From Propionicimonas sp. (GTDB lineage: Bacteria > Actinomycetota > Actinomycetes > Propionibacteriales > Propionibacteriaceae), in assembly GCF_029975155.1 (NCBI RefSeq), contig NZ_JARKPQ010000108.1, forward strand, positions 62,001-126,000: a stretch of DNA of 64,000 nt, written 5' to 3'. Shown here piece by piece: positions 28,848 through 39,890 of the stretch (position 1 is the stretch's first letter; every line of letters begins with the position of its first letter). Position numbers and translations under genes: made by a program. Below the pieces are notes generated by a model, which saw only the letters and a list, made by a program, of their open reading frames with translations, was not told the origin of the DNA and ran no database searches.

Positions 28848-29005
28848 CGCTGGTCGAGCCTGTCGAGACCCCCCCGGTCATCGTTCCCTGAGGAGGTCGC
28901 TCTGCGACCGTCACGAAGGGCGGGTGAGCTGGCCGTCAATGCCAGGGGGGTCGGGCTTGCCGAGACCCTGCCGCCTCACCGTTGGTCGAGCTCGTCGAGA
29001 CCCGG
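28848..29005. repeat. Dispersed repeats of families B and C
   Basis: GGTCGAGCCTGTCGAGACC near 28853 and TTGGTCGAGCTCGTCGAGAC near 28983 are family B palindromes. Between them, CCCTGAGGAG...TCACGAAGGG at 28887-28921 is a family C element with an inner GGTCGC/GCGACC stem. They fill the gap between hpf and the HNH gene. Confidence 0.8.
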
Positions 29006-29040
29006 TCCGGAACGTCAGAGTCACCTGTTTGGATAGAACC

Positions 29041-30384
29041 ATGACGTTGAGCAGCCCTCTTGTTCCGGCCGGTGAGGTCCTGGCCCAGATGAGCGCGCTG
29101 CTGGACCGGCTCGACCCCGACCGCACCGGTGTGGACCCGAAGACGCGGCTGGCGTGGTTGCGTACCGCCCGCAGGGTGCAGGCCCGGGTCACCGCGCTGA
29201 CCGCCCAGTTGACCGGCGAGGCCGACCACACCAAAGCCGCCGAAGAAACCGCGGGGACGCCGTTGGCGTCGTGGCTGGGTATGGGCGAGACGATCTCCCG
29301 TAAAGAAGCTGCCGGGGCTCTGCGTCAGGCACGCAAACTGGCCCAGCACCGGTTGGTGGGTGAGGCGGCGGTGGCCGGCAGGCTCGGCACGTCTCAGGCT
29401 CGGGCGATCACCACCGTGCTGGATAACCTGGCGTCGCAACTCGACGAAGCTCAGCAGGCCCAGGCTGAGCAGGTGATGGTCGACCTGGCCGGCCATCTGG
29501 ACGCCGACCAGCTATCGAAGGCCGCCGGGCAGGTGTTGAAGACGGTGGTGCCGGAGCGTGCGGAGGAGTCGTTGGAGACTCATTTGCAGCGGCAGGCCGA
29601 GGCAGCGTATCGGCAACGCAGTTTGCGGTTCTTCTTCGAGGGTGCCTCGGTGCGTTTCGACGGCTCTTTGCCCCGCCCGGCTGCGGAGGCCTGGATCGCC
29701 CAGTTGGACGCCCATGCCGAGCAGGCCCGCCGTACCGCCCTGGAACGCCGCGACCCGTTGGCCGAAACGTTGATGCCGGAACAGCGACGGGCTGATGCGC
29801 TGATCGCCCAGATCCACCAACCCACCAGCGACGGCGCGGACGGCCCGTCGGCGCGGGTGCTGGTGATGCTGGACTACGCCAAGCTCACCGCCGGTGCGGC
29901 TGGGGCGGGTGTGTTGCCTGATGGGCAGGAGTTGTCGGCTGGTGAGTTGCGCCGGCTGTGCTGCCAGGCTGAGGTGATTCCGGTGGTGTTGGGTGGTCCG
30001 TCGCAGGTGTTGGATGTGGGTCGGGCCGAGCGGCTGGTCACTCCGCAGTTGCGGGCGGCGTTGATCGCCCGTGACAAGGGCTGTGTGTTCCCTGGCTGCG
30101 ACGCCCCACCCAGCAGGTGTGAGGCTCACCACATCCTGCCTTGGTATCTGGGTGGTCTCACCTGGCTGCACAACCTGGTGTTGTTGTGTCATTCGCATCA
30201 TCCGGTGTGTGAACCGGCCCGGTACGGGGTTCGGGATCAGTGGCAGGTGCGGATCGCCGCCGCTGATGGGCTGCCGGAGTTCATCCCACCCGCCCGGTTG
30301 GACCCGGGGCAGAAACCGGTCCGGCATGCCAGACACCAACACCCACCCGGCAGATCACACACCGGACCGACCCGCGCCGCCTGA
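29041..30384 (+). CDS. DUF222 / HNH endonuclease signature protein
   Basis: A 447-aa protein of the abundant actinobacterial DUF222-HNH family (13E12-like), of unknown biological role and often in multiple, mobile-looking copies. DUF222 covers about residues 10-330. The C-terminal HNH motif is CVFPGCDAPPSRCEAHHI, then LCHSHHPVCEP, with the Cys pairs for structural zinc. ATG at 29041 starts the conserved region; the track's earlier start adds repeat-derived sequence. No clear Shine-Dalgarno is seen. Dispersed repeats flank it on both sides. Confidence 0.85.
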   Translation: MTLSSPLVPAGEVLAQMSALLDRLDPDRTGVDPKTRLAWLRTARRVQARVTALTAQLTGEADHTKAAEETAGTPLASWLGMGETISRKEAAGALRQARKLAQHRLVGEAAVAGRLGTSQARAITTVLDNLASQLDEAQQAQAEQVMVDLAGHLDADQLSKAAGQVLKTVVPERAEESLETHLQRQAEAAYRQRSLRFFFEGASVRFDGSLPRPAAEAWIAQLDAHAEQARRTALERRDPLAETLMPEQRRADALIAQIHQPTSDGADGPSARVLVMLDYAKLTAGAAGAGVLPDGQELSAGELRRLCCQAEVIPVVLGGPSQVLDVGRAERLVTPQLRAALIARDKGCVFPGCDAPPSRCEAHHILPWYLGGLTWLHNLVLLCHSHHPVCEPARYGVRDQWQVRIAAADGLPEFIPPARLDPGQKPVRHARHQHPPGRSHTGPTRAA

Positions 30385-31651
30385 GAGCTCGGCCGCGCCG
30401 GGGGTAGTCGCCGTGCCGGTGGCGGGAGTCCCGGCATGCGCCGTGATGATGTCCCGTCCGTCCGCCCTTCGTGATGCTCGCTGGCGCTCGCTCCTCAGGG
30501 ACCGGTGGGGTGCGCACCCGGCCTGACCACTGTCGTCCCGGGCCTCGACCGGAGACCTCCCCATGCGGTCAGGCGGTGATCGCTGGTCGAGCTTGTCGAG
30601 ACGCGGCAGTGGGGTCTCGACAAGGCTCGACCAGCGATGAGTGGCACGGCCGCCTCGGCCCCTGACCTCCGGGTGTCCTCAGGTTGGTGCAGGGATCCCG
30701 GCGTCCGCCAGGATGACGTCGGAGGGCTATTCGCGTCCGTCGGTGGCCCTTCGTGACGCTCGCTGGCGCGCTCCTCAGGAACCGCTGGTGGGGTGCCCGT
30801 CCGACCCCACCACTGTCATCCCGGGCTCCGACCCGGGATCTCCCGATGTGCTCAGGCTGTGATCGGTCGCCGAGCTTGTCGAGACGCGGCAATGGGGTCT
30901 CGACAAGCTCGACCAGCGATGGGTGGCACGGCCGGCGCGACCTCTGGCCTCCGGGCGTCCTCAGGGCGGTGCAGGGATCCCGGCGTCCGCCGGGATGATG
31001 TCGGAGGCTTGTTCGCCTCCGTCCGCCCTTCGTGATGCTCGCTGGCGCTCGCTCCTCAGGGACCGCTCGGGTGCGCACCCGGCCCGACCACTGTCCTCCC
31101 GGGCCTCGACCCGGGATCTCCCCATGCGGTCAGGCTGTGCTCGATCAGCAATCGGTGGCACTGCCGGCTCGACCGGACTTCCGGGCGTCCTCAGGCCGGT
31201 GCAGGGATCCCGGCGTTCGCCGGGATGACGTAGGGGTGGAACCGCACGTCCGTCCGCGGGCCCTTCGTGATGCTCGCTGGCGCTCGCTCCTCAGGGACCA
31301 TTGGGGTGGGCGTCCGGGCCGACCACCGTCATCCCGGGCCCCGACCCAGGATCTCTCCATGTGCTCAGGTTGTGATCGGTCGTCGAGCTTGTCGAGACGC
31401 GGCAGTGGGGTCTCGACAGGCTCGACCAGCGATCGGTGCGAGGCCGCCTCGACTGGACCTCCGGGCGTCCTCAGTGCGGTGCAGGGATCCTGGCGTCCGC
31501 CGGGATGACGTTTGGGTGGGACCGCACGTGCGTCCGGGGTCAACGCGTGTTGGGGTGGGCGGCCGGACCTGCCAGGTCATCCCGGGTTCGATCTGGGATC
31601 TCCCGGCGTTGTGTTCCGGTGGTGCTCGCCGCCGGGCTTTCAGCGATCGGC
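30385..31651. repeat. Gene-free composite repeat array (about 4 units of 235-282 bp)
   Basis: A composite unit recurs with family C elements at 30465, 30747, 31026 and 31261. Each unit carries, in order, C (CCCTTCGTGATGCTCGCTGG...CTCAGGG), an A palindrome (GTCATCCCGGGC...CCCGGGATCT), B arms (GGTCGAGCTTGTCGAGAC facing GTCTCGACAAGCTCGACC), and a second A (GGGATCCCGGCGTCCGCC). The third unit lacks most of B, and a last partial unit ends about 31600. The B pair at 30581-30636 alone could form a hairpin with about 22-nt arms. The ORFs here are repeat read-through; no gene was found. Confidence 0.9.
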
Positions 31652-33283
31652 TTAGGTGAGGGCGGAGAGCGTGGCGGCGACGAGGCTGGGGGCATCGGGA
31701 CGGGTGGCTACGGCGGTGACCTGGAGGCCGGCGGCTCGGGCGGCTGCTGCGGCGGGGGCGCCGATCGCGACGACCTTTGGGCCGTCGGTGCCGCACGAGA
31801 GCACGGCGCTCCGGGCGACGGAGCCGGCGGTCACCACGAAGGCGTCGAAACTGCCGGCTCGCCAGGCAGTGACGACCTCGGCGGGGAGGTTGGTGGGCAC
31901 CGTCCGGTAGACCGGTACTTGGCGCACCTCCCAGCCTTTCGCGATCAGGCCGCGGGTCGGCTCGGCAGATACCTTCTCGGCTCCGGGAAGCAGCACCCGG
32001 CCTGGTCCGTGCGGGAACACCTCAGCCAGCGCGGTGCCTCCGCCGGGGTCCGCGACCAGGTCCATACGGATCCCCACCCGCGCCAGCGCCGCGGCGGTCG
32101 TCGGGCCGACGGACGCCACTTTCGCAGCGCCCAGTCGGCCGGACAGGCCGAAGCCGCCGTCCTCCAGCGAGGCAACCGTCTGGGCCGACGTGACCACCAC
32201 CCAGTCCCAGGCCTCGGCGAGGGCCGTCGTCAGGCCGTCCGTCGGCAAGGTCTCGAAGCTGGTGAAACTCGCCTGGACGACCTCGGCACCGGCAGCGGTC
32301 AGGGCCTCCGCCGTACCCGCGGGGGAGCGCTCGGGCAACAGGATCCGGCGGCCGGCGAGGGGTTTCGGCTTGGTGGCTCCGAGATCGACGAGGCCGGCGG
32401 CCCCCGCTGACAGCAGCCGTTCCGCCACCCGGGTGCCGAGCGCCACCGCCTCGGCGTCCGTCGCGGTTGCCTCGCCCTGTTCGACGAGGCGCGCGGAGCC
32501 GTCCACCGACACCACGGCCGCCCGCAGTGACAGTCCGGCAGCACCGACCACGCAGAACGCGCCCACCGGCGCGGCGCAACCCGCCTCCAACCGCTCCAGG
32601 ACCGCCCGCTCGGCCACTGCCGCGAGCCGGGTCGGCAGGTGGTCCAGTTGGGCGAGGGCATCACGCACCTCTGCCGGGGCGTCCGCGCGGCACTCCACGG
32701 CGAGCGCGCCCTGGGCGGGCGCCGGCAGGAACTCGAGCGGATCGAGCCGTTCGGTGATCCGGTCGTCGAGGCCGAGCCGGCGCAGGCCCGCGGACGCGAG
32801 CACCACCGCGGCCAGGTCCTCGGTGGTCCGGCGCAGGCGGGTCTCCACGTTGCCGCGGATCGCCACCACCTCGAGGTCTGGGCGGCGGGCGAGCAGTTGG
32901 GCGGCCCGGCGCGGCGAGCCCGTGCCCACCCGGGCGCCCTCCGGAAGCTCGGCGAGCCGCAGTCCGTCCTGGGCGCACAGCGCGTCCGCGGGATCCTCGC
33001 GCGGCGGGACGGCAGCCAGCAGCAGGCCCGCCGCAGGCGCCGTGGGCAGGTCCTTGAACGAGTGGACGGCGAGGTCGGCCTCCCCGGAGAGCACCGCGGC
33101 CCGGACCGCGCCGACGAACACCCCGGCACCGCCCATGCTCGCCAGCGGCGCCGAACTCACGTCGCCGTGGGTGGTGATCCTGACCAGCTCCACCTCGTGG
33201 CCGAGCGCCCTCAGCGCGTCAGCCACCGTGCCCGACTGCGTCCAGGCCAGTGCAGAGCCTCTGGTCGCCAGCCGCAGCCTCAC
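31652..33283 (-). CDS. hemC: HemC-HemD fusion: hydroxymethylbilane synthase / uroporphyrinogen-III synthase
   Basis: Makes uroporphyrinogen III from porphobilinogen in one 543-aa polypeptide. The N-terminal HemC part (about 1-300) shows LRLATRGSALAWTQS, GTGSPRRAAQL and LEAGCAAPVGAF, whose cysteine carries the dipyrromethane cofactor. The C-terminal HemD part begins near GRRILLPERSPAG (about 310) and ends with the VVAIGAPAAAAARAAGL and LVAATLSAL segments. GTG at 33283 overlaps the hemH stop by 4 nt. It is the last gene of the heme operon, although its product acts early in the pathway. Confidence 0.93.
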   Translation of the reverse strand: MRLRLATRGSALAWTQSGTVADALRALGHEVELVRITTHGDVSSAPLASMGGAGVFVGAVRAAVLSGEADLAVHSFKDLPTAPAAGLLLAAVPPREDPADALCAQDGLRLAELPEGARVGTGSPRRAAQLLARRPDLEVVAIRGNVETRLRRTTEDLAAVVLASAGLRRLGLDDRITERLDPLEFLPAPAQGALAVECRADAPAEVRDALAQLDHLPTRLAAVAERAVLERLEAGCAAPVGAFCVVGAAGLSLRAAVVSVDGSARLVEQGEATATDAEAVALGTRVAERLLSAGAAGLVDLGATKPKPLAGRRILLPERSPAGTAEALTAAGAEVVQASFTSFETLPTDGLTTALAEAWDWVVVTSAQTVASLEDGGFGLSGRLGAAKVASVGPTTAAALARVGIRMDLVADPGGGTALAEVFPHGPGRVLLPGAEKVSAEPTRGLIAKGWEVRQVPVYRTVPTNLPAEVVTAWRAGSFDAFVVTAGSVARSAVLSCGTDGPKVVAIGAPAAAAARAAGLQVTAVATRPDAPSLVAATLSALT

Positions 33284-34347
33284 CGCAGCGGCTCCTGCGC
33301 GGTCGCCGCTGCGACCGGGGCGTCACGATGCGGGTTCGCGCAGCAGCCGCCGTAGCAGAACTGACCCGGCACCGGCTCCGGCGATCCCGTCCGCAGTTCG
33401 GCGGCGATCCGGTCGGCCAGGGCGCCGACGAAGGCGGGATCGGTGCCGACCGTCGGCGTGCGCACCAGCCGGACGCCGAGTTCCCCGGCCGTCTCCTGCG
33501 CCTGGGTGTCGAGGTCCCAGATCACCTCCATGTGGTCGGAGATGAACCCGATCGGCACCAGTACCACGTCGGTCGTCCCGGCGGCGGCGAACTCGCGCAG
33601 CGCGTCGTTGACGTCCGGTTCCAGCCACGGCACGTGCGGCGGGCCGCTGCGGGACTGGAAGACCAGGTCCCACGGCTTGGCGATCCCGGTCGCCGCCGCG
33701 ATCCCTTCCGCGACCCTGGCCGCGACCCAGCGGTGCTGGGTGAGGTAGCCGTCACCGTCCGGGCCGGCATTCCGGGCCGCGACCGTCGGGATCGAGTGCG
33801 TGGTGAACACCAGCCGGGTGCTCGCCGCCGCGAGATCGAGGTCCGTGGGCAGGCAGTCGAGCAGCAGCTTCGTGATCGTGCTGGCGAAAGCGGGCAGGTC
33901 GTAGAACGGCGGCAGCTTGCGGACGTCCACGTCGATCTCTCCGCCGGCCAGCGCGAGCCCCAGGTCCTCGCGGTACTGCCGGCAGCTCGAGTAGCCCGCA
34001 TAGGCCGCGGTGGCGACGGCCAGCAGCCTGCGGTGGCCCCGGCCCGCCAGATCGGCCAGCACGTCGGGCACGAACGGCGGCGAGTTGCGGTTGGCCAGTA
34101 CGGCGTCGAGTTGCACGCCGGCATCGACCAGCGCTCCCTGCAGCGCGGTGAGCAGCGCGCGGTTCTGGGCGTTGATCGGGCTCACGCCGCCGAGGGTGAA
34201 GTAGTGCTGGCCGACCTCACGCAGCCGCTCCCGCGGGATCCCCCTGCCGGCGGTGACCCGTTCGAGGAAGGGCACCACCTCGCCCTCGCACTCAGGCCCG
34301 CCGAAGCCCATCAGCACGAGGGCGTCGTACTTCAAAGTAGTACTCAC
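33280..34347 (-). CDS. hemH: Coproporphyrin III ferrochelatase (CpfC/HemH)
   Basis: Inserts ferrous iron into coproporphyrin III, the step before HemQ. It is 355 aa. YDALVLMGFGGPE and FTTHSIPTVAARNAG (with the catalytic histidine), and PIGFISDHMEVIWDLD are family signatures. Four cysteines, one in GYSSCRQYRED and three in FCYGGCC near the C-terminus, match the [2Fe-2S] pattern of actinobacterial ferrochelatases. GTG at 34347 overlaps the hemQ stop by 4 nt; the much longer ORF in the track extends into hemQ antiframe sequence. Confidence 0.94.
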   Translation of the reverse strand: MSTTLKYDALVLMGFGGPECEGEVVPFLERVTAGRGIPRERLREVGQHYFTLGGVSPINAQNRALLTALQGALVDAGVQLDAVLANRNSPPFVPDVLADLAGRGHRRLLAVATAAYAGYSSCRQYREDLGLALAGGEIDVDVRKLPPFYDLPAFASTITKLLLDCLPTDLDLAAASTRLVFTTHSIPTVAARNAGPDGDGYLTQHRWVAARVAEGIAAATGIAKPWDLVFQSRSGPPHVPWLEPDVNDALREFAAAGTTDVVLVPIGFISDHMEVIWDLDTQAQETAGELGVRLVRTPTVGTDPAFVGALADRIAAELRTGSPEPVPGQFCYGGCCANPHRDAPVAAATAQEPLR

Positions 34348-35015
34348 CGAAGGACTCGCGGCAGGTCGGACGGGTCGATCCGGTGCCCGGTGAAGAAGGG
34401 CACCTCCAGCCGCACGTGCCGCCGCGCGCCGGAGGAGCGCAGGTGCCGCATCAGGTCCGTGAGGTCGACGAGCTCGTCCGCCTCGAGGGCGAGCAGCCAC
34501 TCGTAGTCGCCCAGCGCGAACGCCGCGACGGTGTTGCTGAGCACCTGGGGGAACTCGCGACCCAGCCGGCCGTGCTCGGCGAGCAGCGCGCGCCGCTCGT
34601 CCTCGGGCAGCAGGTACCACTCGTACGAGCGGACGAACGGGTACACGGTCAGCCAGCGCCTGGCTTCCGCGCCGAGCAGGAAGGCGGGAGCGTGGTCGCG
34701 GCTGAACTCGGCCTGCCGGTGCACGCCGAAGGCCGACCAGACCAGATCGACGGCGCTGCCGAACGCCTCCCGCTGGAACAGCCGCTGCGCCTCCTGCAGG
34801 TCGGACGCGGAGCGCCCGTGCAGCCACACCAGGACGTCCGCGTCGGCGGGCATGCCGTGCACGTCGTACAGGCCGCGCGTGGTGACCCCGGTCCCGGTCA
34901 GCTCGGCGATCAGCTCCCGGGTGGCCTGGGCGACCTCGTCGGGCGCGGGGGTGCGCCGGGCGAACACGGCGTAGCTGGTGTAGTGGATCTCTTCCTGCGG
35001 CGAGTTCGTGCTCAT
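34344..35015 (-). CDS. hemQ: Coproheme decarboxylase HemQ/ChdC
   Basis: Converts iron-coproporphyrin to protoheme, the last step of the coproporphyrin-dependent route. It is 223 aa of the chlorite-dismutase-like fold. YTSYAVFARRT, YPFVRSYEWYLLPEDERRAL, LAEHGRLGREFP (with the likely proximal histidine) and NTVAAFALGDYEWLLALEAD are strongly conserved actinobacterial HemQ segments. ATG at 35015 is one of three closely spaced ATGs in a short duplicated leader (CATGCGGGGT twice). It is 25 nt downstream of hemY. Confidence 0.95.
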   Translation of the reverse strand: MSTNSPQEEIHYTSYAVFARRTPAPDEVAQATRELIAELTGTGVTTRGLYDVHGMPADADVLVWLHGRSASDLQEAQRLFQREAFGSAVDLVWSAFGVHRQAEFSRDHAPAFLLGAEARRWLTVYPFVRSYEWYLLPEDERRALLAEHGRLGREFPQVLSNTVAAFALGDYEWLLALEADELVDLTDLMRHLRSSGARRHVRLEVPFFTGHRIDPSDLPRVLR

Positions 35016-35040: not shown

Positions 35041-36459
35041 TCATGAGGTGACCCTAACCTGACCGGTGGCATGAGCGTCCAGTGCGAGGCCGGCCTGGCG
35101 GCGGCCGTCCGTCACGCAGTCGGGTACACCCACCCCGCGCAGCGCCGAACCGGCGATCCGCCAGGCCGGCAGGTGGGCGAGTCCGGCCTCGGCGGCCGCC
35201 ACCCTGGCCACGTGCCCGACGGTGTACTTCGGCATCACGGCCGACCAGCGGGCGACCCGGCTTGTGAGCGGAGCTTCCCGCGCGTCGAGGACGGCGCCCA
35301 CGTGCGCGATCACCCGCTCCCGCAACTCGTCGTCCGGGGCGTGGGCGATTGCACCGAGGCGTTCGGGCACGAACGCCCGGATCAGCACCACGTCGTCCGG
35401 TGCCCGCCCCGCCCACTTCGCGGAACTCACGGTGACGCCGCTGATCGGTGCGGGGTCCGCCTCCAGCCAGCCGTGGGAGTCGACCGGTGTGGCGAAGGCC
35501 GCGGACGGGTAGGCAAGCGTCACCACGGTGGAGGTGGCCAGTGGCACCCCGGCGAGCGCTTCCGCTGCCCGCGGTGCCGGCCCCGCCAGCAGCGCCGCCG
35601 AACTGGCCACCCCGCCGGCCAGGACCACCGCGTCCACCGACTCCACGGTGCCGTCGCCGAGCACGGCCTGCGTGCTCCCGTCCGGTTGCGGCCGGAGGTC
35701 GGTCACCGAGGTCCGCAGCCGAAGCTCGGCGCCGGCCTCGGCCAGGCGCCCGGCGACGGCGTCCACCAGGCTGCCGAGGCCGCCGCGCAGCGTGCGGAAC
35801 GGCGAACCGGGACCACGGCCGGCCGCGCGGGACTTCCGTCCCTGCGCGAGGGCAGCCAGCATCAGGCTGCGGTGCGTGCGCTCGTCCGTCCGCAGGGACG
35901 GCAGCACGGCGTCCAGGCTGAGTTCGTCCACGCTGGCTCCGTAGATGCCGCCCATCATCGGGTCGGCGAACCGCCGGACGATGCCGCTGCCCAGCCGCGC
36001 GCGCAGGAACGACCCGATCGCGACGTCCTCCCCGTCCCGCAGCTGCCGGGGCAGCACGAGGTCGAGGCCGGCGCGCAGCTTGTCCAGCGGCGAGAGGATC
36101 CCGGTGGTCACGAACGGGCCCAGCCGGGTGGGCAGCACCATGCCCATCCCCGAAGGCAGCGGACGGAGCCGTCCGCGCGAGCGCAGGAACACGATCCGCG
36201 ACCCCGAGGTGCCGATCACGTCGTCGGCCAGGCCGACCTCTTCGGCGAGCTGAAGGGCTGCCGGCCGGTAGCTGACGAAAGAGTCGGGGCCGTGCTCGAT
36301 CAGCAGGTCGTCGGCGACCTCGGTGTGCAGCTTGCCGCCCAGCCGGTCGGACGCCTCGACGAGCAGCACCTCCGCCGGATTCCGGCCGTCCGCGCCACGC
36401 ACGGCCTCCCAGGCCGCGGCCAGCCCGGTGATCCCGCCGCCGACGACCAGCAGCCTCAC
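35041..36459 (-). CDS. hemY: Coproporphyrinogen III oxidase, HemY/CgoX type
   Basis: FAD enzyme oxidising coproporphyrinogen III to coproporphyrin III. It is 472 aa. The dinucleotide-binding motif LLVVGGGITGLAAAWEA begins at residue 3, followed by VEASDRLGGKLHT. Later segments are IEHGPDSFVSY, DPMMGGIYGASVDELSL and a C-terminal IAGSALRGVGVPDCV. GTG at 36459 is chosen because the FAD fold begins there; the track's longer start runs into the radical SAM gene. It overlaps that gene's stop by 4 nt. The pairing with HemQ and HemH indicates the coproporphyrin rather than the protoporphyrin branch. Confidence 0.93.
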   Translation of the reverse strand: MRLLVVGGGITGLAAAWEAVRGADGRNPAEVLLVEASDRLGGKLHTEVADDLLIEHGPDSFVSYRPAALQLAEEVGLADDVIGTSGSRIVFLRSRGRLRPLPSGMGMVLPTRLGPFVTTGILSPLDKLRAGLDLVLPRQLRDGEDVAIGSFLRARLGSGIVRRFADPMMGGIYGASVDELSLDAVLPSLRTDERTHRSLMLAALAQGRKSRAAGRGPGSPFRTLRGGLGSLVDAVAGRLAEAGAELRLRTSVTDLRPQPDGSTQAVLGDGTVESVDAVVLAGGVASSAALLAGPAPRAAEALAGVPLATSTVVTLAYPSAAFATPVDSHGWLEADPAPISGVTVSSAKWAGRAPDDVVLIRAFVPERLGAIAHAPDDELRERVIAHVGAVLDAREAPLTSRVARWSAVMPKYTVGHVARVAAAEAGLAHLPAWRIAGSALRGVGVPDCVTDGRRQAGLALDAHATGQVRVTS

Positions 36460-37592
36460 TTGACAGGCTTGGGCACGTAGGGGCACAGCGGGTCGGACTC
36501 CAGCGGGTCGCCGGTCCACGCGTAGGCCCGTGCCCGCGAGCCGCCGCACCAGTCGTGGAACTCGCAGACCCCGCAGCGTCCCTTGAACTGGTCGGGATCG
36601 CGGAGCGAGCGCATCAGCGGCTCGTCGCGGTACAGCTCGACGAGCGAGCGGTCCTTGACGTTGCCGACGCTCACCGGCAGGAAGCCGGACGGGGTGACCT
36701 CGCCCAGGTTGGAGACGAACACGATCCCGTTGCCGTCACGGATGCCGAACGCCCGCGACATCGGGTGCGCCTCGACCTCCTCCTTGGTCTTGCCCGACCG
36801 CAGCAGCGGCTGGGCCATCAGCCGGCGGAAGTGCATGGCCTCGGTGGTCTTGACCCGGAACGGCGCCTCCCGGTTGGTCTTCGCCGCCCAGAGCAGCCAC
36901 TTCTCCGCGTCGCCGGGGGTGAGCTCCGACAGCTGCGTGCCGCGGCCGATCGAGATCAGGAAGAACAGGCTCCACTGCATCAGCGTGTGCTGGCTGAGCA
37001 GCTCGTAGGTCGCCGGCAGGTCGGCCGCCGTCTGCGCGGTGACCAGGGTGTTCACCTGCACGGGCACCTCGGCCTCCGCCGCGATGTCGAGCGCCTCGAG
37101 GGTGGCGTCGAAGGTGCCCGGCACCATCCGCACACCGTCGTGGAAGGCCGCGGTCGAGCCGTCCAGCGACAGCGAGATCGCCTGGATGCCCGCCTCCTTC
37201 ATCCAGTAGATCCGCTCGCGGGTGAGCAGCGGTGTGACCGCGGGGGCCAGCGAGACGCCGATGCCGCGCTCGGTGGCGGCCGCCACCAGCTGGGGCAGGT
37301 CGCCGCGACGCAGCGGGTCGCCGCCGGTCATCACCACGTGCGGCAGCGACTCGCCCGGGCCGGCGAAGCCGAGGATGTCGTCCAGCAGCCCGATCGCCTG
37401 CGCCGTGGACAGCTCGCCCGGCATCGGATCGGGCATCGCCGTGGCGCGGCAGTGCCGGCAGGCCAGCCCGCAGGCGTTGGTGAGCTCCCAGTAGATGATC
37501 ATCGGCGCCCGGTTGTAGGCCCAGCCCTCCGGCTTCACCGAACCGATGCCGTGCGCGTGCGCGGGCCGGGTCGTCGCGGTGGGATGGGCCAT
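36456..37592 (-). CDS. AhbD/NirJ-like radical SAM-SPASM protein in the heme operon
   Basis: A 378-aa radical SAM enzyme. The cluster motif is NACGLACRHCRATA (CxxxCxxC, about residue 41), then MTGGDPLRRGDL. The C-terminal SPASM-like region CGVCEFHDWCGGSRARAYA plus DPLCPY gives four cysteines for a second Fe-S cluster, as in AhbD and NirJ; the extra cysteine of the usual CGGCRARA is Ser here. AhbD decarboxylates iron-coproporphyrin in the siroheme route, a step that HemQ already covers in this operon, so the role is uncertain. An anaerobic HemQ substitute is possible. ATG at 37592 is 1 nt after the hemE stop. Confidence 0.82.
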   Translation of the reverse strand: MAHPTATTRPAHAHGIGSVKPEGWAYNRAPMIIYWELTNACGLACRHCRATAMPDPMPGELSTAQAIGLLDDILGFAGPGESLPHVVMTGGDPLRRGDLPQLVAAATERGIGVSLAPAVTPLLTRERIYWMKEAGIQAISLSLDGSTAAFHDGVRMVPGTFDATLEALDIAAEAEVPVQVNTLVTAQTAADLPATYELLSQHTLMQWSLFFLISIGRGTQLSELTPGDAEKWLLWAAKTNREAPFRVKTTEAMHFRRLMAQPLLRSGKTKEEVEAHPMSRAFGIRDGNGIVFVSNLGEVTPSGFLPVSVGNVKDRSLVELYRDEPLMRSLRDPDQFKGRCGVCEFHDWCGGSRARAYAWTGDPLESDPLCPYVPKPVK

Positions 37593-37593
37593 A

Positions 37594-38640
37594 TCAGGAC
37601 TCCTGCTCGGGTGGGATGGAGTGGACGAGGTCGACGAGCCTGGTGAGCACGTCGGGATCGGTGTCCGGCGGTACGCCGTGGCCGAGGTTGAACACGTGGC
37701 CGGGAGCAGCGGCGCCCCGCCGGACGACGTCGCGGGCCGCGGCCTCCAGCGTTGCCCAGTCGGCCGCCAGTACCGCGGGGTCGAGGTTGCCCTGCAGCGG
37801 CACCCGGCCGCCGAGCAGCGCGGACGCCTCGTCCAGGCCGATGTCGGAGGCGACGCCGACCACGTCCGCCCCGGCGGCCAGCAGATCGGGCAACAGGTCG
37901 CGGGTGGCGGTGCCGAAGTGCACCCGTGGCACGTCGAGGTCGGCGACGGCCGTGAACACCGCGGTGGAGTGCGGCTGGACGGACGCGCGGTACTCGGCGG
38001 GGGAGAGTCGTCCGACCCAGGAGTCGAACAACTGGACGGCGACCGCCCCGGCCTCGACCTGCGCCCGCAGGAACGTGGACGTGAGTCTGCCCACCCAGGC
38101 CAGCAGCCGGTGCCAGGTCGGCGGGTCGGTCGCCAGCAGCGCCCGGGTGGCCGGCAGCTCGCGGTCGGGCCGGCCCTCGACGAGGTAGGACGCCAGCGTG
38201 AACGGCGCGCCGGCGAAACCGATCAGGGGCACGCCACCGAGCTGGGCGACCGACGCCGCGACCCCGTCCCGCACCGGGGCGAGGGCTACCGGGTCGAGTT
38301 CCGGCAGGGCGGCCACGTCCGCGGCGGTCCGTACCGGCGCATCGAGCACCGGACCGATCCCGGGCACGATCTCGACCGCCACCCCGGCCAGCCGGAGCGG
38401 CACCACGATGTCGGAGAAGAAGATGGCGGCGTCCACGTCGTGGCGACGGACCGGCTGGCAGGTGATCTCCGCGGCGAGTTCCGGGTTCAGGCAGGCGTCG
38501 AGCATCGCGGTGCCCTCGCGGACCGCGCGGTATTCCGGCAGCGACCGGCCGGCCTGGCGCATGAACCACACCGGGCGCCGCGAGGTGGGCTGCCCGCGAT
38601 AGGCGGCCAGCAGCGGTGCCGCGGTGATGGTCGCGGTCAC
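37594..38640 (-). CDS. hemE: Uroporphyrinogen decarboxylase
   Basis: Decarboxylates uroporphyrinogen III to coproporphyrinogen III. It is 348 aa. Active-site and family segments include PVWFMRQAGRSLPEYRAVR, DAAIFFSDIVVPL, GFAGAPFTLASYLVEG, and GHVFNLGHGVPPDTDP near the end. GTG at 38640 overlaps the hemA stop by 4 nt. The gene ends 1 nt before the radical SAM start, so the chain is clearly a single transcript. Confidence 0.95.
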   Translation of the reverse strand: MTATITAAPLLAAYRGQPTSRRPVWFMRQAGRSLPEYRAVREGTAMLDACLNPELAAEITCQPVRRHDVDAAIFFSDIVVPLRLAGVAVEIVPGIGPVLDAPVRTAADVAALPELDPVALAPVRDGVAASVAQLGGVPLIGFAGAPFTLASYLVEGRPDRELPATRALLATDPPTWHRLLAWVGRLTSTFLRAQVEAGAVAVQLFDSWVGRLSPAEYRASVQPHSTAVFTAVADLDVPRVHFGTATRDLLPDLLAAGADVVGVASDIGLDEASALLGGRVPLQGNLDPAVLAADWATLEAAARDVVRRGAAAPGHVFNLGHGVPPDTDPDVLTRLVDLVHSIPPEQES

Positions 38641-39890
38641 GCGTCAGCCTCGACCTCGATGCCGAACAGCGTCTGCAGGGCGTGCGAGTAGTCGGCCAGC
38701 TCGCCGGAGCGGGCGAGCTCCGCCGCCCGGAGCGACGGGGTGTGCAGCAACGCGTTGGACACCCGGCGCAGCGACCGGGCGACCGCCGCGGCCGTCTCGG
38801 GGTCGTAGCGGCGCGCGGCCGCCTCGATCTCGCGCTCGATGAACTGGCTGACGTGGGCGCGCATGGCGGTGACGGCCGGGGTGGCCGCCCGGCCCTGCTC
38901 GAGGTGCAGGTAGGTGTCCACGCCGCGGGCGACCAGGTCGCGCGCGGCCAGCACGGACGCGGTCTGCTCGGTCGGCGCGTGGGCGCCGACCTCCTCCAGA
39001 TCGATCAGGTCGATGTTGAGCAGCCCGGCGGCGTCGGGGGCGACGTCCCCGGCGAGGGAGAGGTCGAGGACGGGCAGCAGCGCCGTCGCCGACGCCCGTG
39101 CCGCCGCCAGCTGTGCGGCGGACACCAGCGGGCCCTGGGAACTCTCGCCGCCGCTGCAGGTGACCAGCAGGTCGGCGGCGGCGATCGCGTCCGCGAGGCC
39201 GTCCATCGGCACGGGCTGGACGGGGTGCGTCGCGGCGAACTGCCGGGCGCGGTCGCTGGGGGAGTACACCCACAGGTCGGTGCAGCCGAGGCGGGACAGG
39301 GCCGCGGTGACCACTCGCGCGTAGCTGCCGGTGCCGACGACGACCGTGCGGCGTCCCGCCAGCGGGAAGTGTCGCTGCTCGACCAACTGCAGCCCGACCT
39401 GGGCGATGGACCGCCCGGCCGCGCCGAGGTCCGTCCCAGTGCTGACGGCTTTCGCCGTGGCGAGCGCGGCGTGGAACAGCCGGTGCAGCGACGCGGTGGC
39501 GCGCTCACCGGACGTGGCCAGTGCCTCGCGCACCTGGCCGATGATCTCCGCCTCGCCGACCACCATCGAGTCCAGGCCGCTGGCGACCTCGAGCAGGTGC
39601 TGCACGGCCGCCTGGCCCGCGTAGACCTCGAACTGGTCGACCAGCCCGCGCTGGGCCGGGGGCAGGGCGGTGCGGACGGCGTCCAGCGCCGCCTCGAGAC
39701 CGGTGTGGAACGTGGGGGACTCGAAGTAGACCTCGAACCGGTTGCACGTGCTGAGCAGTACCTGGCCGGCCAGGCCCGCGGTGTCGAGCGCTTCGCGGAT
39801 CGGCGCGGCCGCCTGGCTCAGGTGCGCCAGCTCGTCCAGCGGGACGAGGTGATGGCTGAGGCCGACGGCGCTAATGGGCACGCCCAGCAT
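38637..39890 (-). CDS. hemA: Glutamyl-tRNA reductase
   Basis: First committed step of the C5 tetrapyrrole pathway: NADPH-dependent reduction of glutamyl-tRNA to glutamate semialdehyde. It is 417 aa. SAVGLSHHLVPLDELAHL is the N-terminus and LLSTCNRFEVYFES carries the catalytic cysteine. SGLDSMVVGEAEIIGQVREA is the central signature, and VVGTGSYARVVTAAL the NADPH fold. It heads the minus-strand heme operon; hemL and hemB are not in the window. ATG at 39890 fits the family N-terminus, with no clear Shine-Dalgarno. Confidence 0.95.
   Translation of the reverse strand: MLGVPISAVGLSHHLVPLDELAHLSQAAAPIREALDTAGLAGQVLLSTCNRFEVYFESPTFHTGLEAALDAVRTALPPAQRGLVDQFEVYAGQAAVQHLLEVASGLDSMVVGEAEIIGQVREALATSGERATASLHRLFHAALATAKAVSTGTDLGAAGRSIAQVGLQLVEQRHFPLAGRRTVVVGTGSYARVVTAALSRLGCTDLWVYSPSDRARQFAATHPVQPVPMDGLADAIAAADLLVTCSGGESSQGPLVSAAQLAAARASATALLPVLDLSLAGDVAPDAAGLLNIDLIDLEEVGAHAPTEQTASVLAARDLVARGVDTYLHLEQGRAATPAVTAMRAHVSQFIEREIEAAARRYDPETAAAVARSLRRVSNALLHTPSLRAAELARSGELADYSHALQTLFGIEVEADA

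Follow-up and report, generated by a model that had tools for sequence, protein, structure and literature searches.

We propose that a radical SAM gene of the curated family TIGR04053, embedded in the heme operon of a Propionicimonas sp., encodes an AhbD-like coproheme decarboxylase that works without oxygen. Comparative sequence evidence makes it probable that this enzyme serves as a backup for HemQ in this organism and, in several hemQ-less relatives, as the only decarboxylase. The strongest evidence for the decarboxylase role, itself drawn from genome sequence, is natural gene loss: hemQ has disappeared from the operon of several Propionibacteriaceae, and the radical SAM gene has stayed in place. 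Here we describe the operon, the family and its cysteine ligands, the genomes that lack HemQ, and what the enzyme would mean for heme synthesis. "The window" is the whole 64,000-nucleotide stretch analysed, and all positions refer to it.

The heme operon

The radical SAM gene lies in a tight operon on the minus strand, with all genes in one direction, in the order hemA-hemE-rSAM-hemY-hemQ-hemH-hemCD:

38637..39890, minus strand: hemA, glutamyl-tRNA reductase (open reading frame, assigned from sequence and conserved synteny)
37594..38640, minus strand: hemE, uroporphyrinogen decarboxylase (TIGR01464, 350 bits; cut-off 303)
36456..37592, minus strand: radical SAM/SPASM (AuxII-only) gene of the TIGR04053 family, 378 aa, candidate O2-independent coproheme decarboxylase (TIGR04053 profile, tree, HemQ-less relatives)
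35041..36459, minus strand: hemY/cgoX, coproporphyrinogen III oxidase (TIGR00562, 194 bits; cut-off 98), whose GTG start overlaps the stop of the radical SAM gene
34344..35015, minus strand: hemQ/chdC, peroxide-dependent coproheme decarboxylase (HemQ_actino NF042928, 307 bits; cut-off 235)
33280..34347, minus strand: hemH/cpfC, coproporphyrin ferrochelatase (PF00762, 227 bits; cut-off 27; probable GTG start at 34347)
31652..33283, minus strand: hemC-hemD fusion, hydroxymethylbilane synthase and uroporphyrinogen III synthase (open reading frame, assigned from sequence and conserved synteny)

A preliminary description of this DNA had placed an open reading frame at 36456-37592 between hemE and hemY, with junctions of 1 and 4 nt, inside a HemQ-type heme operon. 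Direct reading of the minus strand bears this out: the hemE stop is separated from the radical SAM start by one nucleotide (TGA-T-ATG), and the radical SAM and hemY genes share a 4-nt GTGA overlap of the kind also seen at hemA/hemE, hemQ/hemH and hemH/hemC. The HemE, HemY, HemQ and ferrochelatase profiles all score above their cut-offs, and we infer that the radical SAM gene is co-transcribed with these genes of the coproporphyrin-dependent pathway. Its operon position is conserved in Propionibacteriaceae; in a single-protein search of named genomes, the order hemE-rSAM-hemY on one strand recurred in 21 of 31 loci, and the arrangement is therefore not a matter of chance.

The window's hemQ carries the YPFVRSYEWYLLP motif and is apparently intact. 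A decayed HemQ was considered and rejected because the protein is not truncated and its alignment extends along solved coproheme decarboxylases, including 9miq. The genome also encodes an activase of glycyl radical enzymes, which points to anaerobic metabolism. Beyond the operon, GC-rich repeats occupy 30569-31650, flanked by the hemCD gene and by an HNH-type gene (28924-30384), and give similar short peptides in several reading frames.

Family assignment and phylogeny

Among curated models, TIGR04053 is the best match to the radical SAM protein, with 432.2 bits against a cut-off of 395 over profile positions 2-366 of 366; it is the genome's single TIGR04053 gene above cut-off. The models for AhbD (TIGR04545, 279.5 bits; cut-off 500) and NirJ (TIGR04051, 161.6 bits; cut-off 515) fall below their thresholds, which rules out AhbD proper and NirJ proper as its identity. 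Close relatives in named genomes come mostly from Propionibacteriaceae and their allies, for example Micropruina, Propionicimonas and Propionibacterium.

Our tree of 60 proteins covers TIGR04053, AhbD, NirJ2-like, AhbC/NirJ1 and MftC sequences. The AhbD representatives belong to genomes of the window's phylum, and two of them, when scored, reached 514 and 577 bits against the cut-off of 500; the MftC and NirJ2-like representatives were labelled by sequence features, without profile scores. TIGR04053 forms one clade (support 97/99), with the window protein inside it in 97% of bootstrap trees. This clade joins AhbD and NirJ2-like proteins at 100/99 as the sister of those two, and the AhbC/NirJ1 branch comes next, outside all three. 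The label "AhbD/NirJ-like" given in the preliminary description thus stands as a statement of kinship, since the protein belongs to the sister clade of AhbD and NirJ2-like proteins; it does not stand as an identity, since the curated AhbD and NirJ cut-offs are missed and the family is TIGR04053.

The tree also bears on the proposal that the protein is a peptide-modifying SPASM maturase that sits in a heme operon by chance. The predicted structure, a good model (pLDDT 88.7), is compatible with this but does not discriminate: among the matches listed, its closest PDB folds belong to SPASM enzymes that include several peptide maturases, with no AhbD or NirJ structure among those matches. However, tetrapyrrole families rank first in the sequence scores, all operon neighbours are heme genes, and the tree places the protein with AhbD and NirJ2-like enzymes, apart from the mycofactocin maturase MftC, which forms a separate clade at 100/100. 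Grouping with peptide-modifying SPASM enzymes had been named at the outset as an outcome that would refute a role in heme synthesis; in the tree, where MftC alone represented such enzymes, no such grouping appeared. On the tree and the sequence scores we set the peptide maturase aside as extremely improbable.

Cysteine ligands and auxiliary clusters

The positions that matter for cluster binding are as follows, with AhbD residues in M. barkeri numbering, matched by motif spacing:

37449..37472, minus strand: radical SAM cluster motif C41GLAC45RHC48 (CX3CX2C), three cysteines invariant in 39 of 39 aligned proteins
36840..36842, minus strand: Glu251, at the AhbD AuxI-ligand cysteine position C223
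36687..36689, minus strand: Ser302, at the AhbD AuxI-ligand cysteine position C274
36537..36539, minus strand: Ser352 of CGGSRARA, at the AhbD AuxI-ligand cysteine position C324
36483..36575, minus strand: AuxII-type motif C340-x2-C343-x5-C349-x20-C370, four cysteines invariant in the 39 aligned proteins

Both motifs of AhbD, CX3CX2C and CX2CX5CX20-38C, occur in the window protein, the latter being conserved in all AhbD (PMC10452713). The AhbD/NirJ-like C-terminal cysteine cluster of the preliminary description is therefore present, as CX2CX5CX20C with C340, C343, C349 and C370. The full SPASM motif with the AuxI cysteines, found in a subset of AhbD, is replaced by E251, I284, S302 and S352. 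These replacements run through the family: Glu is found at position 251 in 29 of 34 TIGR04053 sequences (Cys in four of five AhbD), Ser at 302 in 30 of 34 and Ser at 352 in 33 of 34 (Cys in five of five AhbD at both), and I284, at the fourth remaining SPASM cysteine position of AhbD, is mostly I or V in the 34. A Cys-to-Ser change in the CGG(C)RARA motif had been singled out earlier; Ser352 is indeed there, but it is the usual residue in this family.

The set E251/S302/S352 is the one reported for AhbD of non-methanogenic archaea, in which one Glu and two Ser replace three AuxI ligands and the fourth position is not conserved (Fix et al., PMC10452713), with loss of auxiliary cluster I only (PMC10452713). 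According to the same authors, no AhbD with the Glu/Ser/Ser replacement has been assayed (Fix et al., PMC10452713); in the haloarchaeon Haloferax volcanii, ahbD is required for anaerobic growth, and heme restores growth (PMC5746218). Because archaeal AhbD share the replacement and the H. volcanii gene is needed anaerobically, the Cys-to-Ser change, judged from sequence, predicts a single auxiliary cluster and is no argument against heme synthase activity. We rejected its reading as a mark of altered or lost function because the change is family-wide and common to archaeal AhbD (PMC10452713).

Loss of hemQ in relatives

The operons of Propionibacterium acidifaciens, P. australiense, UBA7704, UBA8946 and UBA5174 show a clean loss of hemQ, with the radical SAM gene still lying between hemE and hemY. 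The hemY-to-hemH distance is 26-116 bp in these five operons versus 670-743 bp where hemQ is present; tblastn gave no significant hemQ remnant, and a PF06778 (chlorite-dismutase-family) search of the five genomes gave no match. UBA7704, UBA8946 and UBA5174 are MAGs, and several of the HemQ-less genomes are drafts. A further case comes from a single-contig genome, G491, whose operon reads hemA-C-E-Y-H versus hemA-C-E-Y-Q-H in its near relative G444; each of the two carries a TIGR04053 gene at another locus. G475 is without HemQ and carries a hemY-TIGR04053 pair, and outside Propionibacteriaceae the draft genomes G010, G131 and G151 are without HemQ and have TIGR04053. P. cyclohexanicum and G410 lack hemQ in the operon but have it elsewhere in the genome.

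Co-occurrence was counted in 70 genomes, with "HemQ-less" meaning no HemQ above cut-off; 68 belong to the window's own family, taken to be Propionibacteriaceae from contigs common to the two genome searches. Twelve Propionibacteriaceae genomes were HemQ-less, six with hemE (G475 being counted here on a fragment just under cut-off) and six without it above cut-off (G371, G485, G453, G356, G457 and G463). The radical SAM gene was found in five of the six with hemE and in none of the six others (one-sided Fisher p = 0.008, related genomes not being independent); the sixth hemE-bearing genome, G473, encodes a true HemN, which at 560 bits lies far above cut-off. HemF was absent from all 34 genomes searched, which rules it out as a hidden alternative. 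True HemN is ruled out as a general alternative, since only G473 has a match above cut-off; weaker matches occur in nearly all genomes, with or without HemQ. In G371, G485, G453, G457 and G356 (loci L198-L201 and L212), which are without hemE or HemQ above cut-off and without TIGR04053, the ferrochelatase is of another type.

This pattern bears on two other accounts of the gene. The enzyme might work earlier in the pathway, by one or two steps, with metal-free coproporphyrin(ogen) III as its substrate, as a HemN-like anaerobic bypass to protoporphyrin. The gene does adjoin hemY, a TIGR04053-hemY pair is the most frequent partial linkage of the family, and the lack of HemF and near-lack of HemN noted above would fit. 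Yet AhbD, the nearest characterised relative, uses iron-coproporphyrin III, and HemQ-less genomes with the radical SAM gene keep the ferrochelatase type that neighbours hemQ, not the type of G371, G473 and others, so that we regard this earlier step as very unlikely. The other account sets the enzyme outside heme b synthesis and has it convert a pathway intermediate into a modified tetrapyrrole, heme d1-like or with some other side-chain change. It draws on the fact that the related NirJ, AhbC and AhbD act on different tetrapyrroles and on the many members of the family that have no link to heme genes. It would leave unexplained, however, both the source of heme in the five hemE-bearing genomes without HemQ, HemF or HemN above cut-off and why HemQ-less genomes without hemE also lack the radical SAM gene; we consider it hardly probable.

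An oxygen-independent backup for HemQ, offered in the preliminary description as one plausible role, is on these sequence comparisons the best-supported explanation, given that HemQ-less relatives keep the radical SAM gene in the same slot. Gene loss shows that HemQ is replaceable in the HemQ-less genomes; it does not show which reaction takes place in the window organism.

Other loci of the family

Some TIGR04053 genes adjoin a lone hemY, a lone hemH or an AhbC/NirJ1-like gene, and many lie far from any heme gene; the neighbours of the heme-unlinked members examined had no common theme. The family may not be uniform in function, and since so many members have no heme gene nearby, we claim no single function for the whole of it. 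At six loci (L055, L058, L070, L071, L072 and L073) the TIGR04053 gene adjoins an AhbC/NirJ1-like gene, as AhbD adjoins AhbC elsewhere, and TIGR04053 may therefore also serve siroheme-dependent heme synthesis.

Several genomes carry a second hemY directly beside TIGR04053, with another hemY elsewhere, as in G431 (C6:246025 and C6:389026) and G344 (C13:488694 and C1:641583); a second hemY beside TIGR04053 is also found in G359, G368, G446, G389, G335 and G267 (the loci being L123, L134, L136, L146, L147, L126, L145 and L043). In G431, G344 and G359 a few kb at most separate the other hemY from hemQ, and the second copy suggests two parallel terminal modules. More tentatively, and with somewhat less than even confidence, we raise a wider possibility: TIGR04053 could be a general O2-independent coproheme decarboxylase of the Gram-positive coproporphyrin-dependent pathway, one that often forms, with a second HemY dedicated to it, a full alternative terminal module parallel to HemY-HemQ and that repeatedly replaces HemQ.

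Two MAGs show unusual arrangements. In Cellulomonas sp. 73-92 (L157, 8857-12514), a Propionibacteriaceae-type radical SAM gene and hemY lie on one strand, and next to them hemE, hemQ, hemH and hemC score lower and lie on the opposite strand; the pair looks as if it had been transferred together. AS27yjCOA_218 has two TIGR04053 genes, one in a full heme operon (L154, 9508-10632) and one beside a lone hemH (L176, 10001-11083).

Proposed mechanism

We infer the substrate, product and chemistry of the enzyme by analogy with AhbD. In the window organism it would stand in for HemQ at the last heme step under scarcity of oxygen and peroxide. Reductive cleavage of SAM would take place at the cluster ligated by C41, C45 and C48, as in AhbD (PMC11306076, PMC10452713); the 5'-deoxyadenosyl radical would then take hydrogen from a propionate, from which CO2 would be released, and the leftover electron would exit via the single auxiliary cluster (C340, C343, C349 and C370) or the heme iron, before the cycle repeats on the second propionate.

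An earlier step, that of hemY, may limit how far such a route could run without oxygen. In S. aureus and other Firmicutes CgoX needs no oxygen, but the S. coelicolor enzyme could not sustain S. aureus growing anaerobically (PMC6620371). By analogy, some oxygen may still be required before the last step, at hemY. Because hemY is retained in the HemQ-less operons and S. coelicolor CgoX failed anaerobically, the radical SAM enzyme may spare peroxide at low oxygen rather than permit strict anaerobiosis.

Relation to known systems and significance

The window protein shares with AhbD, the heme b synthase of the siroheme-dependent pathway, the radical SAM motif, the C-terminal CX2CX5CX20C and a location among heme genes, and with archaeal AhbD members the Glu/Ser/Ser replacement. 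It differs in belonging to a separate sister clade and curated family (279 bits against the AhbD cut-off of 500) and in its surroundings: AhbD is found with ahbA-C, a gene set absent near the radical SAM gene, whose operon is coproporphyrin-dependent and contains hemE, hemY and hemH (hemA-E-rSAM-Y-Q-H-CD). With HemQ/ChdC it would share substrate, product and pathway step, and the two are encoded in one operon; in contrast, fold and chemistry are unrelated, HemQ—intact in the window operon—being chlorite-dismutase-like and in need of H2O2. NirJ, NirJ1, NirJ2 and AhbC are related radical SAM/SPASM enzymes that act on tetrapyrrole side chains; NirJ2-like proteins join the AhbD side and the AhbC/NirJ1 branch diverges earlier, and the window protein scores far below the cut-offs of these families. 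Within TIGR04053 it lies above the curated cut-off (432 vs 395), and NCBIfam names this family without a function.

Reviews state that AhbD can end the coproporphyrin-dependent pathway (PMC7242693, PMC12670364) and that ahbD is colocalised with hemY/hemH/hemQ (PMC10548856, citing Dailey 2015); a 2024 paper still calls the O2-independent enzyme unknown (PMC10965808). Our literature search found no paper naming TIGR04053, no experiment of a biochemical or genetic kind on any member of the family, and nothing on Propionibacterium hemQ together with radical SAM or on yfkAB. What is new here is a sister family of AhbD, with one predicted auxiliary cluster, that lies within a HemQ operon and apparently replaces HemQ in relatives. 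We found no published work that assigns this curated family, named without a function, and couples it with natural HemQ-loss lineages among named species; with both in hand, the question becomes directly testable. HemQ of Gram-positive bacteria is under discussion as a drug target, and a bypass enzyme, if it exists, would bear on its use as such a target.
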